In this document: one piece after another, positions 10,396-58,350 of the stretch
Layout: each line of letters begins with the position of its first letter
Numbering within the stretch: the stretch's first letter is position 1
Assembly: GCF_041346945.1 (NCBI RefSeq)
Contig: NZ_CP166850.1
Coordinates: forward strand, 9,532,501-9,596,500
Reading direction: 5' to 3'
DNA from: Amycolatopsis sp. cg9
GTDB lineage: Bacteria; Actinomycetota; Actinomycetes; Mycobacteriales; Pseudonocardiaceae
DNA length: 64,000 nucleotides
Notes under the pieces: model-generated
What the model was told of the DNA's origin: nothing
What the model saw: only the letters and a program-made list of their open reading frames with translations
The model's database searches: none
Made by a program: the position numbers and the translations under genes

Positions 10396-10423
10396 CCCCG
10401 CACTTTCACGTGAAAGTGCGGGG
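10396..10423. repeat. Dispersed palindrome family 1, copy A
   Basis: A perfect 28-bp palindrome: the 20-bp core GCACTTTCACGTGAAAGTGC flanked by CCCC and GGGG. It lies in the gap between the aldehyde dehydrogenase stop and the PL8 start. The same core recurs at 10433-10452 and twice in scpB. It could act as a terminator or binding site; its recurrence points to a mobile palindromic element. Confidence 0.9.
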
Positions 10424-10432
10424 CCCAGGTCG

Positions 10433-10452
10433 GCACTTTCACGTGAAAGTGC
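10433..10452. repeat. Dispersed palindrome family 1, copy B
   Basis: Second exact copy of the 20-bp core GCACTTTCACGTGAAAGTGC, nine bases after copy A, ending 3 bp from the aldehyde dehydrogenase stop codon. Confidence 0.9.
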
Positions 10453-10455
10453 GGG

Positions 10456-11910
10456 TCAGCGGGAGCCGTCGGTGCGGCGGGGCAGCTGCCAGGGGTTGGC
10501 CTCCTGCAGGGGTTCGGGGAGCAGCGCGTCCGGGAAGCCCTGCCAGGCGATCGGGCGCAGGAACCGCTCGATCGCCGCCGTGCCGACGGACGTCGTCGTC
10601 GGGGCGGTCGTGGCCGGGTAGGGGCCGCCGTGCTGCTGGGCCCAGCTCACCGTGACGCCGGTGGGCCAGTCGTTCCACAGCAGCCGGCCAGCGATGCGGG
10701 CCAGCGGGGGCAGCACCGGCCGGAGCCAGTCCGCGTCGGACTCCTCGCCGTGGATCGTGGCGGTGAGCCCCGGTTCGACGACGTCGAGCAGGCTCAGCAG
10801 CTCGGCCTGGTCGGCGTAGGTGACGATCAGCGACGCCGGGCCGAAGCACTCTTCGTGCACGGCGGGGCCACCCTCGAGGAACTGCTTGCCGGTCGTGGCC
10901 AGCAGCGTCGGCGTGAACGACGGCGACTCCGAAGCCGACGAAGACACGACGTCGACGCCCGGCACCTCGCGCAGCGCGGCGAGTTTCGCCTCGTACCCGG
11001 CGGCGATGCGGTCGTTGAGCATCGGCTGGGCCGCGGCACCGTCCAGCGCGGCCTGCAAAGTCGACGTCAGGCCGTGGTCCTCGGGCAGGAACAGCAGCCC
11101 GGGCTTGGTGCAGAACTGCCCGGCGCCGAGCGTGAACGACCCGGCGTAGCCCTTCGCGACGGCCTCCCCGCGCGCGGCGATGGCGGCCTCGGTGACGACG
11201 ACCGGGTTGACGCTGCCGAGCTCGCCGTAGAACGGGATCGGCCGGGGCCGCGCGTTCGCGATGTCGAACAGCGCCCGCCCGCCCGGGATCGACCCGGTGA
11301 ACGACGCCGCGGAGATGCGCGGGTCCTTCAGCGCCGTGACGCCTTCCTCCTGGCCGAAGATGACGTCGAAGATGCCGTCGGGTGCGCCGGCGCCGGTCAG
11401 GGCTTCGCGCACGATCCGGCCGGTCAGCGCGGACAGCTCCGGGTGCCCGGGGTGCGCCTTGAGGACCACCGGGCAGCCCGCGGCGAGCGCGGACGCCGTG
11501 TCGCCGCCGGCGACGCTGAACGCGAACGGGAAGTTGCTCGCGGCGAACACCAGCACCGGGCCGATGGCGGTCTTCACCCGGCGGATGTCCGGGCGCGGGC
11601 CCATCGGCCAGTCCGGGTCGGCGTGGTCGACGGTCGCGCCGAGGTACTCGCCGTCGGCCAGGGTCTCGCCGAAGAGGCGCAGCTGGAACGTCGTGCGCTT
11701 CAGCTCGCCCGCCAGCCGCGGGGTGGCCGGCAGGTGCGTCTCGGTGTGGGCGAGCGGGACGAGCTCGTCCGCGGCGGCGTCGAGCGCGTCGGCGGCCGCG
11801 ACCAGCCAGCGGGACCGCTCGGCCGGCGTGGCCTCGGCGGCGGGGCGGGCGGCCGCGGCGGCCCCCGCCAGGATCTTCTCGAGCGTGGCGGCGTCGGTGG
11901 CCTGGCTCAT
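10456..11910 (-). CDS. 2-oxoglutarate semialdehyde dehydrogenase (NADP-dependent aldehyde dehydrogenase)
   Basis: 484 residues of the aldehyde dehydrogenase superfamily. Visible motifs are ASNFPFAFS (the Asn-Phe-Pro substrate/cofactor region), SFTGSIPGG, the general-base Glu in FYGELGSVNP and the nucleophile Cys in GAGQFCTKPG. This pattern (SNFPFAFSVAGGDTASALAAGCPVV) is typical of the alpha-ketoglutaric semialdehyde dehydrogenases of sugar-acid catabolism. It would oxidise 2,5-dioxopentanoate, the product of the dehydratase encoded at 14413-15348, to 2-oxoglutarate with NADP. It is on the same strand as, and downstream of, the dehydratase genes. A family-2 palindrome lies just upstream of its start and family-1 palindromes just after its stop. 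Confidence 0.9.
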   Translation of the reverse strand: MSQATDAATLEKILAGAAAAARPAAEATPAERSRWLVAAADALDAAADELVPLAHTETHLPATPRLAGELKRTTFQLRLFGETLADGEYLGATVDHADPDWPMGPRPDIRRVKTAIGPVLVFAASNFPFAFSVAGGDTASALAAGCPVVLKAHPGHPELSALTGRIVREALTGAGAPDGIFDVIFGQEEGVTALKDPRISAASFTGSIPGGRALFDIANARPRPIPFYGELGSVNPVVVTEAAIAARGEAVAKGYAGSFTLGAGQFCTKPGLLFLPEDHGLTSTLQAALDGAAAQPMLNDRIAAGYEAKLAALREVPGVDVVSSSASESPSFTPTLLATTGKQFLEGGPAVHEECFGPASLIVTYADQAELLSLLDVVEPGLTATIHGEESDADWLRPVLPPLARIAGRLLWNDWPTGVTVSWAQQHGGPYPATTAPTTTSVGTAAIERFLRPIAWQGFPDALLPEPLQEANPWQLPRRTDGSR

Positions 11911-52775: not shown

Positions 52776-53506
52776 AGCGCGCCGACCTCGCCCTTCGTCA
52801 GCCGCCGGATCGAGCCGACGCGCTGGTTGCCGAGCTGGACGTCGCCGACCGCGGTCCGGACCAGCTTGAGCACCGGGTGGCCGGTGTCCTTGAGCAGGCG
52901 GCGCACGATGTGCTTCTTGCCCTCGTGGATGACCAGCTCCACCAGCGACTTGCCGGAGTGCATGTCCTTCACCCGGAACTGGTCGACCTTGATGATGCCG
53001 TCCGGCAGCTCCCAGCCGTTGCGCAGCTCCTTGCCGAGCCCGCGCGGGACCAGGCCGTCGACCTCGGCGAGGTAGGTCTTGAGCACCCGGTAGGACGGGT
53101 GCATCAGCCGGTGCCCGAGGTCGCCGTCGTTGGTCAGCAGCAGCAGGCCCTCGGTGTTCTCGTCGAGCCGGCCGACGTGCACGACCCCGGGCGTCTCCTC
53201 GTACCGGCCGGCCAGGTAGTCGCCGACGCACGGGCGGCCGCGGTCGTCCGACATGGTCGAATGCACGCCCTTGGGCTTGTTCAGGGCGAGGTAGATCAGG
53301 TCGTCGCGCAGGTTCACGCGGGTGCCGTCGACGTGGATGACCGCCTCGTCCGGGTGCACCCGGCGGCCCAGCTCGGTGACGACCTCGCCGTCGACCTCGA
53401 CGCGCCCGGCGACGATGAGGTCTTCCGCCGCGCGCCGGGAGGCGACCCCGGCCTGCGACAGCACCTTCTGCAGGCGGATGCCGTCGGGGTGCTCACTGGA
53501 TGTCAT
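52754..53506 (-). CDS. rluB: 23S rRNA pseudouridine synthase (RluB/RsuA family)
   Basis: 250 residues. An S4 RNA-binding domain (IRLQKVLSQAGVASRRAAEDLI...GRVEVDG) at 8-60 is followed by the synthase domain with the catalytic Asp in VGRLDENTEGLLLLTNDG. The LALNKPKGVHSTM and KTYLAEVDG strands are conserved too. It converts a specific uridine of rRNA to pseudouridine. The start overlaps the scpB stop by 14 bp, so it is coupled to the segregation operon, as in mycobacteria. Confidence 0.93.
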   Translation of the reverse strand: MTSSEHPDGIRLQKVLSQAGVASRRAAEDLIVAGRVEVDGEVVTELGRRVHPDEAVIHVDGTRVNLRDDLIYLALNKPKGVHSTMSDDRGRPCVGDYLAGRYEETPGVVHVGRLDENTEGLLLLTNDGDLGHRLMHPSYRVLKTYLAEVDGLVPRGLGKELRNGWELPDGIIKVDQFRVKDMHSGKSLVELVIHEGKKHIVRRLLKDTGHPVLKLVRTAVGDVQLGNQRVGSIRRLTKGEVGALYRNVEL

Positions 53507-54335
53507 CGATGGTGTCCACTTCGGGTAGCAACGGAGCGATGGCGGGCAGGTCGTTCAGTGACGACAGCCCCAGTCGCTCCAGGAACAGCTCGGTCGTCAC
53601 GTACAGCGTCCCGGTCGTGTCGGGGTCGGTCCCCATCTCTTCGATGAGGCCGCGCGCGAGCAGCGTCCGGATCACGCCGTCCACGTTCACGCCGCGCACC
53701 GCGGCGACCCTGGCCCGGGTCACCGGCTGCCGGTACGCGATCACGGCGAGGCTCTCGAGCGCGGCCCGGGTCAGCTTCGACCGCTGGCCGTCCAGCAGGA
53801 GCTTCTCCACGAACGGGGCATAGACGTCCCTAGTGTAGAACCGCCACCCCTCACCGACTCGCCGCAGGTCGATCCCGGAGGTCCGGTCGGTGAACTTCTG
53901 CGCCATGGTGCGCAGCGCGACGACGATCCGCGCCTTCGGCTGCTCGAGGGTTTCGGCGAGCAGCTCCTCACTGGCGGGCGAGTCGACGACGAGCAGCAGC
54001 GACTCAAGGGCGGCCTCGAGAGCTTCGTCGGAGCTGACGTCGGGCAGCAGGCTGATGTCCCCGCTCGCGACCAGGTCGGACTCGGGGTCATCAGGCCCAG
54101 GCTCCCCCTCGGCCTCCGCACTTTCACGTGAAAGTGCGGGCTCCGGGGCGGACTCCTCGGCCACGGGCTCCACCGGCTGGCCGTCCTCGTCCACGGGCTC
54201 GCCCGACAGGGCCTCGTCCAGGGCCAGCTCCGCCGCGGCCTCCGCACTTTCACGTGAAAGTGCGGACTCCTCGGCCACGGGCTCGCCCGCCGGCGGCACC
54301 GGCGCTTCGGCCACTTCGTCGTTCTCGGGGCTCAC
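53493..54335 (-). CDS. scpB: Segregation and condensation protein B
   Basis: 280 residues. The GTG start overlaps the scpA stop (GTGA). The conserved part begins near residue 95: LEAALESLLLVVDSPASEELLAETL, GWRFYTRDVYAPFVEKLL, LTRAALESLAVIAYRQPVTRARV, RGVNVDGVIRTLLARGLIEE and TGTLYVTTELFLERLGL form the tandem winged helices that bind ScpA. The first 95 residues are an acidic, low-complexity extension that contains two in-frame copies of a dispersed palindrome, each translated as ALSRESA. ScpB with ScpA and SMC makes the bacterial condensin. Confidence 0.93.
   Translation of the reverse strand: MSPENDEVAEAPVPPAGEPVAEESALSRESAEAAAELALDEALSGEPVDEDGQPVEPVAEESAPEPALSRESAEAEGEPGPDDPESDLVASGDISLLPDVSSDEALEAALESLLLVVDSPASEELLAETLEQPKARIVVALRTMAQKFTDRTSGIDLRRVGEGWRFYTRDVYAPFVEKLLLDGQRSKLTRAALESLAVIAYRQPVTRARVAAVRGVNVDGVIRTLLARGLIEEMGTDPDTTGTLYVTTELFLERLGLSSLNDLPAIAPLLPEVDTIDDIQ
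54116..54139. repeat. Dispersed palindrome family 1, copy C, inside scpB
   Basis: Exact 20-bp core at 54118-54137 with CC/GG flanks, in frame in scpB (about residues 67-73, ALSRESA). Confidence 0.9.
54241..54266. repeat. Dispersed palindrome family 1, copy D, inside scpB
   Basis: Exact 20-bp core at 54244-54263 within a perfect 26-bp palindrome (TCC/GGA flanks), in frame in scpB at about residues 25-31, again reading ALSRESA. Confidence 0.9.
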
Positions 54336-55234
54336 CCGTACTCCTCTTCGTCTCCGGCGGCGCGGTCCAGCTCGGCCGCCGCGGAGGCTTCTTCCTTCGA
54401 GCCGCCCGTCCAGCGGACGTGCAGTTCCGCCAGTGCCTCGCTCTGCTCGAACTGGACCGACGACTCGCGGTAGAGCTCCAGCAGCGCCAGGAAGCGGGCG
54501 ACGATCTCGACCGTGTGCTCGCAGTCGTCGACCAGCTCGCCGAACGTCGCCTGGCCGCGCTCCGCCAGCATGACCCGCAGGATCCCCGCGTGCTCGCGCA
54601 CCGAGATGCGGCCCATGTGGATGTGCGCGATCGACACCGTCGGCGGCGGCTTCGGCCGGAACACCGCCACCGCGATCTCCGCGAACTTCTGCGGCGTGAC
54701 GCCCAGCATCACCTCGGGCAGCAGCCCGACGAACCGGTCCTCCAGCGCCACCGACCGCGGGTACCGCCGCAGCGCGCCCTGTTCCAGCTCGCCGAACAGC
54801 GCCGCCACCTGCTTGTACGCGCGGTACTGCAGCACGCGGGCGAAGAGCAGGTCGCGGGCTTCCAGCAACGCCAGGTCGTCTTCGCTCTCGACCTCGGCCG
54901 CGGGCAGCAGGCGCGCCGCCTTCAAGTCCAAGAGCGTGGCCGCGATGACCAGGAACTCCGTCGTCTCGTCGAGGTTCCACTCGGTGCCCAGCGCGCGCGT
55001 GTACGCGATGAAGTCGTCGGTGACCCGGTGCAGCGCCACCTCGGTGACGTCGAGCTGGTGCTGCGAGATCAGCTGCAGCAGCAGGTCGAACGGCCCTTCG
55101 AAGTTGGCCAGCCGCACCTTGAACTTCGACGTGCTCAGTTCTTCGGTGTTGACGCCTTCGGGGATCATCCCGCCGTGCACCGTCTGGTGCTCTTCGGGGA
55201 CCTGTTCCTCCGGAGCCGGTGCCGGCTCGTCCAT
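54332..55234 (-). CDS. scpA: Segregation and condensation protein A
   Basis: 300 residues. The kleisin N-terminus FKVRLANFEGPFDLLLQLISQHQLDVTEVALHRVTDDFI is standard, followed by EFLVIAATLLDLKAARLLP and the C-terminal winged helix (TVEIVARFLALLELYRESSVQFEQSEALAELHV) that contacts the SMC head. The first 36 residues are an acidic extension typical of actinobacteria. It bridges SMC and ScpB. Its ATG overlaps the stop of the RHH gene upstream (ATGA) and its stop overlaps the scpB start. Confidence 0.94.
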   Translation of the reverse strand: MDEPAPAPEEQVPEEHQTVHGGMIPEGVNTEELSTSKFKVRLANFEGPFDLLLQLISQHQLDVTEVALHRVTDDFIAYTRALGTEWNLDETTEFLVIAATLLDLKAARLLPAAEVESEDDLALLEARDLLFARVLQYRAYKQVAALFGELEQGALRRYPRSVALEDRFVGLLPEVMLGVTPQKFAEIAVAVFRPKPPPTVSIAHIHMGRISVREHAGILRVMLAERGQATFGELVDDCEHTVEIVARFLALLELYRESSVQFEQSEALAELHVRWTGGSKEEASAAAELDRAAGDEEEYG

Positions 55235-55644
55235 CAGCCCTCGGTTTCGCCGCCGTCTGAGCCGACCACCCGCAGCCGCTGCACCAGCACCGACTCCTCG
55301 CCGTTCTGGTCGAAGTCGGCCAGCAGCACCGCCACCGCTTCGCGGACCAGCCGGCCGCGGTCGACGACCAGCTCGTGCTTGGCGCGCAGCGTCAGCCGGG
55401 CCTGTTCCATGGCCACGAGCTCGTCGCCGGAGACGTACACCGTGATCTTCGCGTCGTGCTTGGTCCGTCCCGACCCGTGCGGGGCCGCGCTGCGGGCCAG
55501 CTGTTCGGTCCGGCCGGTGCCCGCGGGCTTGGCCTTCTCGGCGGGCTCCGCGGGCGCGGGCGCCTGGGGCGGGAGGTCGAGGGCGGGGCTGGAGGTGATC
55601 CTGAAGAGTTCCGACGCTCCGGGCAGGGAAGCGCGCCTGCTCAC
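55234..55644 (-). CDS. Ribbon-helix-helix-like protein between parA and scpA
   Basis: 136 residues. A Pro/Ala-rich N-terminal half is followed by HDAKITVYVSGDELVAMEQARLTLRAKHELVVDRGRLVREAVAVLLADF, a strand plus two helices in the pattern of RHH DNA-binding proteins. It sits between parA and scpA with coupled starts on both sides (GTGA with parA, ATGA with scpA), an arrangement conserved in related genomes. It may be the partner that links the ParA-like ATPase to DNA, in place of a ParB. No function has been assigned by me beyond that. Confidence 0.75.
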   Translation of the reverse strand: MSRRASLPGASELFRITSSPALDLPPQAPAPAEPAEKAKPAGTGRTEQLARSAAPHGSGRTKHDAKITVYVSGDELVAMEQARLTLRAKHELVVDRGRLVREAVAVLLADFDQNGEESVLVQRLRVVGSDGGETEG

Positions 55645-56612
55645 CGAGCGATCACCTCGCGGGCCAGCTGGCGGTACGCCGCCGCGCCGGCCGACTTGGG
55701 CGCCCAGGTCGTGATCGGCTCACCCGCGACCGTCGTCTCGGGGAACCGCACGGTGCGGTTGATGACCGTGTCGAACACGGTCTCGCCGAATGCCTCCACC
55801 ACGCGAGCCATGACCTCCTTCGAATGCAGGGTTCTCGGGTCGTACATGGTGGCGAGAATCCCGACTATGTCCAGTTTGGGGTTGAGGCGTTCCTGGACCT
55901 TCTCGATGGTGTCGATCAGGAGGGCGACGCCTCGCAGACTGAAGAACTCGCACTCCAGCGGGATGATCACGCCGTCCGCGGCGGTCAGCGCGTTCACCGT
56001 GAGCAAGCCGAGCGAGGGCTGGCAGTCCACAAGAACATAGTCGTAGTCGTTCATGACCGGACGAAGGACCCGTAACAACGTGTGCTCGCGCCCTACCTCA
56101 GCGACGAGCTGGACCTCCGCCGCGGACAGGTCGATGTTGCTCGGCAGCAGGTCAACGCCGTCGACGCGGGTTTTCATGAGCACGTCGGTCGCGCTGACCG
56201 ACCGCTCCATGATGGCGTTGTAGACCGTGTGGTCCAGTTCGTGCGGCTGGATGCCGAGGCCGACGGCGAGCGCGCCCTGCGGGTCGAAGTCGACGAGCAG
56301 CACCTTGCGGCCGTACTCGGCGAGGGCGGCACCCAGGTTGATGGTCGACGTCGTCTTGCCGACGCCGCCCTTCTGGTTGCACATCGCCATGATCTTGGCC
56401 GGGCCGTGCCTGTCCAGCGGCGCCGGGTCGGGGTGCTCGCGGATCGGGCGGCCGGTCGGGCCGATGCCCTCGAGCTTGACCTTCTTGCCGTTGCGCTCCT
56501 GCGGTTCGTCGCCTTCGTGGACCGCGGGCGTGGCGATGGTGACCTGGCTGAGGTTCGCCGCCGCCGACCCGGCGGACTCGGCCGGTACGGCCGGCTGGTT
56601 CGGTGTCGACAT
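55641..56612 (-). CDS. ParA/MinD-type ATPase of the scpAB operon
   Basis: 323 residues. The deviant Walker A is CNQKGGVGKTTSTINLGAAL near residue 80, Walker B-like VLLVDFDPQGAL and VLVDCQPSLGLLT, then VIIPLECEFFSLRG. A 65-residue acidic N-terminal extension precedes the domain. This is the Soj/ParA-like protein encoded beside scpAB in actinobacteria (Rv1708-type), distinct from the parAB locus at the origin. It probably helps position chromosome or condensin. A promoter is visible upstream. Confidence 0.9.
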   Translation of the reverse strand: MSTPNQPAVPAESAGSAAANLSQVTIATPAVHEGDEPQERNGKKVKLEGIGPTGRPIREHPDPAPLDRHGPAKIMAMCNQKGGVGKTTSTINLGAALAEYGRKVLLVDFDPQGALAVGLGIQPHELDHTVYNAIMERSVSATDVLMKTRVDGVDLLPSNIDLSAAEVQLVAEVGREHTLLRVLRPVMNDYDYVLVDCQPSLGLLTVNALTAADGVIIPLECEFFSLRGVALLIDTIEKVQERLNPKLDIVGILATMYDPRTLHSKEVMARVVEAFGETVFDTVINRTVRFPETTVAGEPITTWAPKSAGAAAYRQLAREVIAR

Positions 56613-58273: not shown

Positions 58274-58296
58274 CCCAATGTGGCGTTGGTTGCGTC
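58274..58296. repeat. Dispersed palindrome family 3, half copy
   Basis: CCCAATGTGGCGTTGGTTGC, one unpaired arm similar to the full hairpin 8 bp further on. Confidence 0.75.
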
Positions 58297-58303
58297 CAGC
58301 GCA

Positions 58304-58350
58304 CCCAATGTGGCGTTCGGTGCGTCTGACGCACCGAACGCCACATTGGG
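58304..58350. repeat. Dispersed palindrome family 3, full hairpin
   Basis: Two perfect 23-base arms (CCCAATGTGGCGTTCGGTGC... and its complement) around a single T, 47 bp in all. It lies between the convergent TM2 and NUDIX genes and can end both transcripts. Confidence 0.9.

Follow-up and report, generated by a model that had tools for sequence, protein, structure and literature searches.

A genus-specific 26-bp palindromic repeat of Amycolatopsis, present twice in frame in scpB, with a near-invariant centre and paired variable arms

Introduction

Why should the gene for ScpB, a protein of the condensin complex, contain the same perfect palindrome twice, both times in frame and translated? 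The question arises from a 64,000-nucleotide stretch of the Amycolatopsis sp. cg9 genome, hereafter the window, in which scpB lies on the minus strand at 53493..54335. A sequence-only reading had proposed that the element may spread as coding DNA, or that its sites may have a role in the segregation operon, for example as DNA sites for a chromosome-organising protein. Here, the repeat was followed through the genome, the genus and the family, and these proposals were weighed against other explanations.

The palindrome in the window

The 20-mer GCACTTTCACGTGAAAGTGC is present in scpB as two exact copies, at 54118-54137 and 54244-54263. As had been read from the sequence, both are in frame, both are translated as A-L-S-R-E-S-A, and both fall within the N-terminal extension, ahead of the SMC_ScpB domain (Pfam, residues 109-265). 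A flanking CC/GG extends each 20-mer to a perfect 24-bp palindrome (54116-54139 and 54242-54265). In terms of the 26-bp unit defined below, copy 1 occupies 54241..54266, with its inner 14-mer at 54247-54260, and copy 2 occupies 54115..54140, with its 14-mer at 54121-54134. The neighbouring scpA (54332..55234) and, further along, a gene for a ParA-like ATPase (55641..56612), both on the minus strand, have no copy of the repeat, and no Rfam match was found around scpB (window 53000-55500). The 20-mer occurs four times in the window, at 10400, 10433, 54118 and 54244; the first two form a 59-bp doublet (10397..10455) directly past the stop codon of a minus-strand gene (10456-11910). At 58277-58347, between convergent genes, the window also contains three copies, one of them inverted, of another gene-end motif around AATGTGGCGTT, which contain an inner CGGTGCGTC-TGACGCACCG hairpin.

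Abundance and distribution

The genome of the window (G000, 10.64 Mb) contains 105 exact 20-mers against 0 for a reversed control, a number far above chance. The inner 14-mer, CTTTCACGTGAAAG, is found 135 times exactly, 136 times at up to one mismatch and 141 times at up to two (control 4), the last figure including parS, which is two mismatches off. Among 390 genomes of the family the 14-mer was located in 23, namely 22 of the 80 in the genus and one of the 310 others (G325, a single copy), and the 20-mer in 18 of the 80. We define as carriers those genomes with at least 26 14-mers; there are 16, all Amycolatopsis, with 26-194 copies (G000 135, G008 51, G017 136, G019 66, G025 119, G031 51, G039 39, G041 144, G042 124, G044 181, G048 85, G051 67, G062 26, G066 194, G067 43 and G075 115). 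Low counts were obtained for G057 (3) and for G023, G032, G065, G068 and G079 (1 each). In named genomes the 20-mer was present in at least 120 stretches, and among the 80 matches listed all were from Amycolatopsis, including A. rifamycinica, A. pretoriensis, A. bullii, A. eburnea, A. kentuckyensis and A. iheyensis; species without a name were also represented, and the soil strain A. rifamycinica DSM 46095 is one of the carriers. These loci were picked by the exact 20-mer, which biases them to shared sites and fixes arm positions 1-3. The repeat is genus-specific. Viral contigs gave 0 matches for either 20-mer, a 60-base doublet query had no match among plasmid records, and a literature search, from whose coverage subscription papers were mostly absent, revealed no publication on the repeat.

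In a one-locus tree of the scpB region (34 rows, midpoint root), carriers and non-carriers are interleaved, and G075 (115 copies) and G057 (3 copies) are sisters with full support. Because 12 of the 31 inner branches are open, the number of changes between carrier and non-carrier is unsure, and a single change is also possible. G029 lies close to carriers in this tree, yet it has 8 near-matches against 8 in the control. In this genome the copies seem either to have vanished faster than by point mutation or never to have been numerous. The repeat-free Amycolatopsis genomes G002 (L281-L285) and G003 (L286-L290) have other repeated hairpins, examples being GTCCGTGAAGGCC..GGCCTTCACGGAC and ACACGAATGTGGCTTTCG..CGAAAGCCACATTCGTGT.

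Structure of the unit and its dialects

The unit is a 26-bp palindrome made up of a fixed head, CTTTC-ACGT-GAAAG, and six variable, self-complementary arm pairs. In the first DNA sample, 237 of 238 distinct TTTCACGTGAAA cores were the 14-mer and the remaining one was parS; GCAC/GTGC stood outside the core in 197, many of the others had different matched arms, for example GAGC/GCTC, TCGC/GCGA, TAGC/GCTA and CCAC/GTGG, and some arms were unmatched. Pairing was scored in single copies, defined as those with no neighbour within about 70 bp. In coding singles (n=37), arm positions 1-6 were paired in 36, 34, 33, 34, 33 and 26 copies, respectively, of which positions 4-6 are the telling ones because selection by the 20-mer largely fixes positions 1-3; positions 7 and 8 were paired in only 10 and 8, where shuffles gave higher means of 13.2 and 12.1. 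In intergenic singles (n=77), pairing at positions 4-11 and 13 was above the maximum of 1000 shuffles. These limits give 26 bp as the length of the common palindromic unit, which is extended at gene ends.

Copies are also arranged in pairs. Among neighbours up to 80 bp apart, 59 of 83 cases have a 33-bp spacing, and the doublet is thus 26-7-26, eleven codons from centre to centre. The linker consensus is CCCCAGG in both the doublets called intergenic (30) and those called coding (29), with the qualifications that orienting each linker to whichever side was nearer CCAGG favours this consensus, and that at least three scpB doublets (G044 and G066) were scored as intergenic where the gene caller missed scpB. 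Copies spaced by 39 bp can have a small-hairpin spacer, CTTTG..CAAAG (L005:1540, L007:1540, L022:1991-2049 and L103).

Two related genomes, G028 and G037, contain no exact 14-mer, but 318 and 344 sites when two mismatches are allowed (10 and 8 in the control). The CCGG repeat, CTTTCCCGGGAAAG, was present as 8 exact copies in 271 kb of G028 and 5 in 115 kb of G037, mostly with GCA/TGC outside and with paired arms, and the 33-bp spacing was seen twice, in one pair with a variant loop. Four one-off loops besides CCGG were observed in the G028 stretches examined. A sister family with the sequence CTTTC-RYRGG-GAAAG, which we designate family B, was found in 22 of the 80 genus genomes, including 13 of the 16 carriers; its loop has five bases and its palindrome is imperfect. 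At two orthologous sites (L146/L165 and L103/L007) the ACGT loop and the family-B loop are found on a near-identical stem. The stem is constant across ACGT, CCGG and family B, and the loop varies.

Compensatory changes at the soxG site

A site in soxG (SoxG family), chosen from the G000 copy only, was traced through the 80 genus genomes. A match was present in 58, and 29 of the 30 loci examined were readable, all 16 carriers included. In 12 of the 16 carriers an exact 14-mer lies nearest the VVDVS motif and the arms differ; the core is altered in the other four (G019, G051, G062 and G075), and the 13 remaining readable genomes are without the 14-mer. The resulting alignment has eleven rows, two of the twelve being identical over 38 bases. 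Selecting rows by their unaltered core makes the five inner pairs constant but leaves the arms free. All six arm pairs show change on both sides, with 95.0% of cells paired as against 84.0% in shuffles. The covariation was 0.336, compared with 0.138 when shuffled (0 of 500 shuffles as high), and there were six double-changed pairs against 3.2 in shuffles (1 of 500). Structures slid along the alignment pair at 35-52% only.

In G040, G023 and G077 the soxG product retains LSRES or LARES with GC-richer codons. From the sequences, these non-carrier segments may be read as decayed copies in which constraint at the DNA level has been lost; alternatively, the peptide may have been there before the repeat. 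Clean insertion was discarded as the only source of copies, since the second soxG copy arrived with a replaced stretch and not as a simple insert.

Placement relative to genes

In the examined loci we placed 268 distinct copies, counting orthologues separately and using a codon-usage gene caller. Reading frames contained 111, convergent gaps 75, tandem gaps 75, divergent gaps 4 and locus edges 3. The proposal that the element spreads as coding DNA is supported by the 111 copies in called reading frames, 98 of which are read as LSRE and 13 as FHVK; the third frame contains a stop. The host proteins include ScpB, SoxG, an AMP-binding enzyme, a BTAD-type regulator, two sensor-kinase-like proteins, an ABC ATPase and a molybdopterin oxidoreductase, to which, on our reading of the translations, modular synthase-like proteins may be added. 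Intergenic copies lie at a median of 21 bp from a stop codon, with 171 of 225 distances not exceeding 50 bp.

The scpB linker of 13 of the 16 carriers holds one to three copies at varying positions (11 of 14 from one reading, plus G044 and G066 read separately), and carriers G051, G067 and G062 have none there. In those 11 readings all linker copies use the LSRES frame. The expectation that relatives would be found without the insertion was confirmed at one site, the 54244 copy being a 30+3-bp in-frame gain that is missing from the close relative G048 (L172). Copy 2 is shared, as G048 and G042 also carry a copy at the matching PEPALSRESA. Since both scpB copies are preceded, in sense, by GAGCCCGTGGCCGAGGAGTCCGC, the 54244 copy seems to have arisen by local duplication around the one at 54118. 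The opposing picture, in which all scpB orthologues would have ALSRESA with other codons, was not observed: in the scpB stretches examined, LSRES always coincided with the exact 14-mer, and repeat-free genomes had none. The suggested special role in the segregation operon was not supported, with only 2 of the 135 genome copies lying in scpB. Copies at this place are equally compatible with a permissive linker and with a function, and for this reason we claim no scpB function; we infer that they are ordinary repeat members in a permissive linker.

Exactness and gain of copies

Thirty-nine G000 clusters, comprising 64 of the 135 copies, were examined, and orthologous DNA of other species was compared for 21. 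In all 21, one or more other species had the 14-mer there, the lowest flank identity being 0.71-0.93; the comparison DNA was partial and biased to carriers. Under neutrality some 39-88 relics would be expected, a rough figure which assumes 3-5.5% divergence on the genome's own branch. Those seen in G000 were one at one mismatch and five at two mismatches (control four). Of the neighbours lying up to 70 bp from a chosen copy, 96 were exact and 3, 1 and 1 had one, two and three mismatches, respectively. The near-match excess (the count at up to two mismatches minus exact copies minus control) was below one-tenth of the exact number in ten carriers: G000, G017, G025, G031, G041, G042, G044, G048, G066 and G067. 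It was larger, as excess/exact, in G051 (33/67), G039 (13/39), G062 (9/26), G008 (9/51), G019 (10/66) and G075 (16/115). The excess was 17 in G044, and among low-copy genomes 18 in G057 and 14 in G068.

Gains between relatives measure 30-39 bp, as with a 33-bp unit in G042 scpB relative to the window, 39 bp in L096 versus L149 and 30 bp in L144 versus L143. Since most gains adjoin an existing copy, local duplication may account for some of the spread; the occurrence of one linker at unrelated places suggests block transfer too.

What maintains the repeat?

The near-invariant centre, taken with arms that differ in matched pairs, suggests that a cell component may read the folded hairpin. Our preferred reading, to which we assign a probability of about 0.5, is that of a short copy-and-paste palindromic DNA element, read as a folded hairpin and kept exact by a putative reader. 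What is read would be the folded DNA, a hairpin or cruciform made of the stem and a four-base loop, and not a duplex operator or an RNA. The putative protein would recognise the stem as well as the loop, whose sequence (ACGT or CCGG) would be the dialect of the protein, and its action would keep the copies exact; where a lineage loses the reader, the copies would decay. Our analysis found no reader protein for the hairpin. Against this reading, exactness is not universal, six carriers having the larger near-match excess and 4 of 16 an altered soxG core, and point mutation alone hardly explains non-carriers of the G029 type, which are near carriers and have no near-match excess. A more speculative extension, which we offer tentatively, is a genome-wide structural DNA code in which the 26-bp hairpin, situated at gene ends and throughout proteins, would carry an address in its loop (ACGT, CCGG or family-B) for putative readers that differ between lineages or are missing from them, and reader loss would erase the copies.

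The palindromes might instead be RNA hairpins at gene ends, either bidirectional terminators or transcript stabilisers: intergenic copies are close to stop codons, their gaps are convergent or tandem and seldom divergent, and the arms are longer outside genes. We nevertheless consider this unlikely. The T-rich tail is missing (mean 1.48 T per 8 nt, against 1.29 in the control), and there is no preference for G.U, which numbered 19 to 26 A.C in tandem gaps and 31 to 65 in reading frames, counted where the sense of transcription was known and at least 4 of 8 arm pairs were formed. Selection on RNA should favour G.U, so a stem at the RNA level is not supported. Furthermore, 111 of the 268 copies lie inside called reading frames, and an RNA hairpin would not require an invariant loop and inner stem. 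An intrinsic terminator in the strict sense (hairpin plus T tract) was rejected on the missing T tail and on a terminator scan around the window doublet, which returned 0. The longer arms of gene-end copies leave room for a transcript function, which may act there too. As a separate matter, A.C exceeds G.U in genes. Another alternative is that the elements are purely selfish protein-coding palindromes without present function, comparable with those of Rickettsia. In-frame copies in unrelated genes, in-frame gains, a common linker at unrelated places and patchy presence are all as this would predict; on the other side, mutated copies are nearly absent from G000 although its sites are shared, and a single DNA sequence is read in two frames, from which it appears that the DNA is what is kept. 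We regard pure selfishness as quite improbable. A DNA-uptake-type signal that has species dialects and spreads through biased transformation seems highly improbable. The 24-mer includes AAGTGCGG, which we take to resemble the Haemophilus uptake signal. Dialects and tolerance of reading frames recall the uptake sequences (DUS) as presented in the available text of PMC3630211, but about 13 copies/Mb here compare with 5918 DUS in a 2.4-Mb genome, and one one-mismatch copy per 135 with +21% for kingDUS.

The remaining possibility, raised by the sequence-only reading, is that the palindromes are bound as double-stranded DNA by a chromosome-organising protein of the ParB/Noc kind. According to the available part of PMC7383237, parS (TGTTTCACGTGAAACA) and the Noc site (TATTTCCCGGGAAATA) differ at half-site positions 1 and 6. 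Over the seven inner bases, the ACGT and CCGG dialects match the half-sites TGTTTCAC/TATTTCCC except at just these two positions. At position 1 the dialects carry C, at position 6 A or C. The wide dispersal and exactness of the copies also speak for such a site. On the other hand, the stretch of ParB presumed to bind DNA shows no difference among the 14 carriers and 4 non-carriers compared; in the CCGG pair it departs from theirs, by two residues in G028 and three in G037. A single ParB-family match was found in 10 of the 16 carriers and in both CCGG genomes, and GTTTCACGTGAAAC is still beside parB, in the CCGG genomes too. The arms covary, which a duplex operator would not need, and family B, with its five-base loop, has no perfect palindrome. 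True parS would be GTTTCACGTGAAAC near oriC and read by ParB, whereas the copies are dispersed with C/G at position 1; a Noc site would be TATTTCCCGGGAAATA with Noc, a ParB paralogue, as its reader, whereas position 1 differs and most carriers have the single match. The parS-like cluster of G000 is a separate one, at 2574930-2575815, beside parB at 2573235. In that region (G000:C1:2573235-2575815) are the only four parS-like sites at up to one mismatch, one GTTTCACGTGAAAC and three with one change, all beside parB. We consider a ParB/Noc site rather unlikely, and ParB itself is disfavoured as reader by its identical presumed DNA-binding stretch and single match. Because of these two observations and the retention of GTTTCACGTGAAAC in CCGG genomes, the ACGT dialect is unlikely to be read by a changed ParB; a distant ParB-like protein may lie below the limit of the search.

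The palindromic repeat behaves as if single copies matter, even where they alter proteins, the condensin-complex protein ScpB among them. Sister genomes with 115 and 3 copies, together with two loop dialects, make the search for a reader a direct comparative and biochemical task, which would test whether selection, conversion or a mobile enzyme can keep short dispersed repeats exact. There is also a caution for annotation: LSRES stretches in Amycolatopsis proteins can derive from DNA elements and not from protein function.

Comparison with known systems

In their 12 central bp the two dialects coincide with parS and the Noc site, but the Amycolatopsis repeat has C/G as its outer base, is dispersed, has variable paired arms and occurs with a ParB stretch that is the same in non-carriers (compared with the sites given in the available text of PMC7383237). 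With the DUS of the Neisseriaceae, as far as described in the accessible portion of PMC3630211, it has in common a short dispersed motif, species dialects and coding frames without stops; it differs in being far sparser and palindromic, with one one-mismatch copy per 135 exact. Perfect inverted repeats within genes are also known from the mitochondria of Nematomorpha, where they reach 284 bp, and the accessible part of that account (PMC6649704) does not mention a fixed head.

REP doublets and BIMEs resemble the repeat in being short hairpins with more than 100 copies that lie near gene ends, either alone or regularly paired, and, like REP-type sequences, it is a short palindromic hairpin with a common motif in high copy number (135; 26-bp unit). 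In contrast to REP, as outlined in the accessible sections of PMC2817692 and PMC12306157, many Amycolatopsis copies are within genes, there is no GTAG-type head and the palindrome is perfect. REP are extragenic and seldom in genes; here, 111 of 268 copies are in called reading frames. A crude motif regex for REP tyrosine transposases, run over the 2221 called genes of the examined loci, gave 5 matches, none recognisable as such an enzyme. The Rickettsia palindromic elements, in the portion of PMC10969869 available, are likewise palindromes that lie in frame in unrelated protein genes and encode a conserved peptide, as do the in-frame copies described here. They measure about 150 bp, against 26 or 59 bp in Amycolatopsis, and the Amycolatopsis repeat is set apart from them by its exact core, its paired variable arms and its loop dialects.
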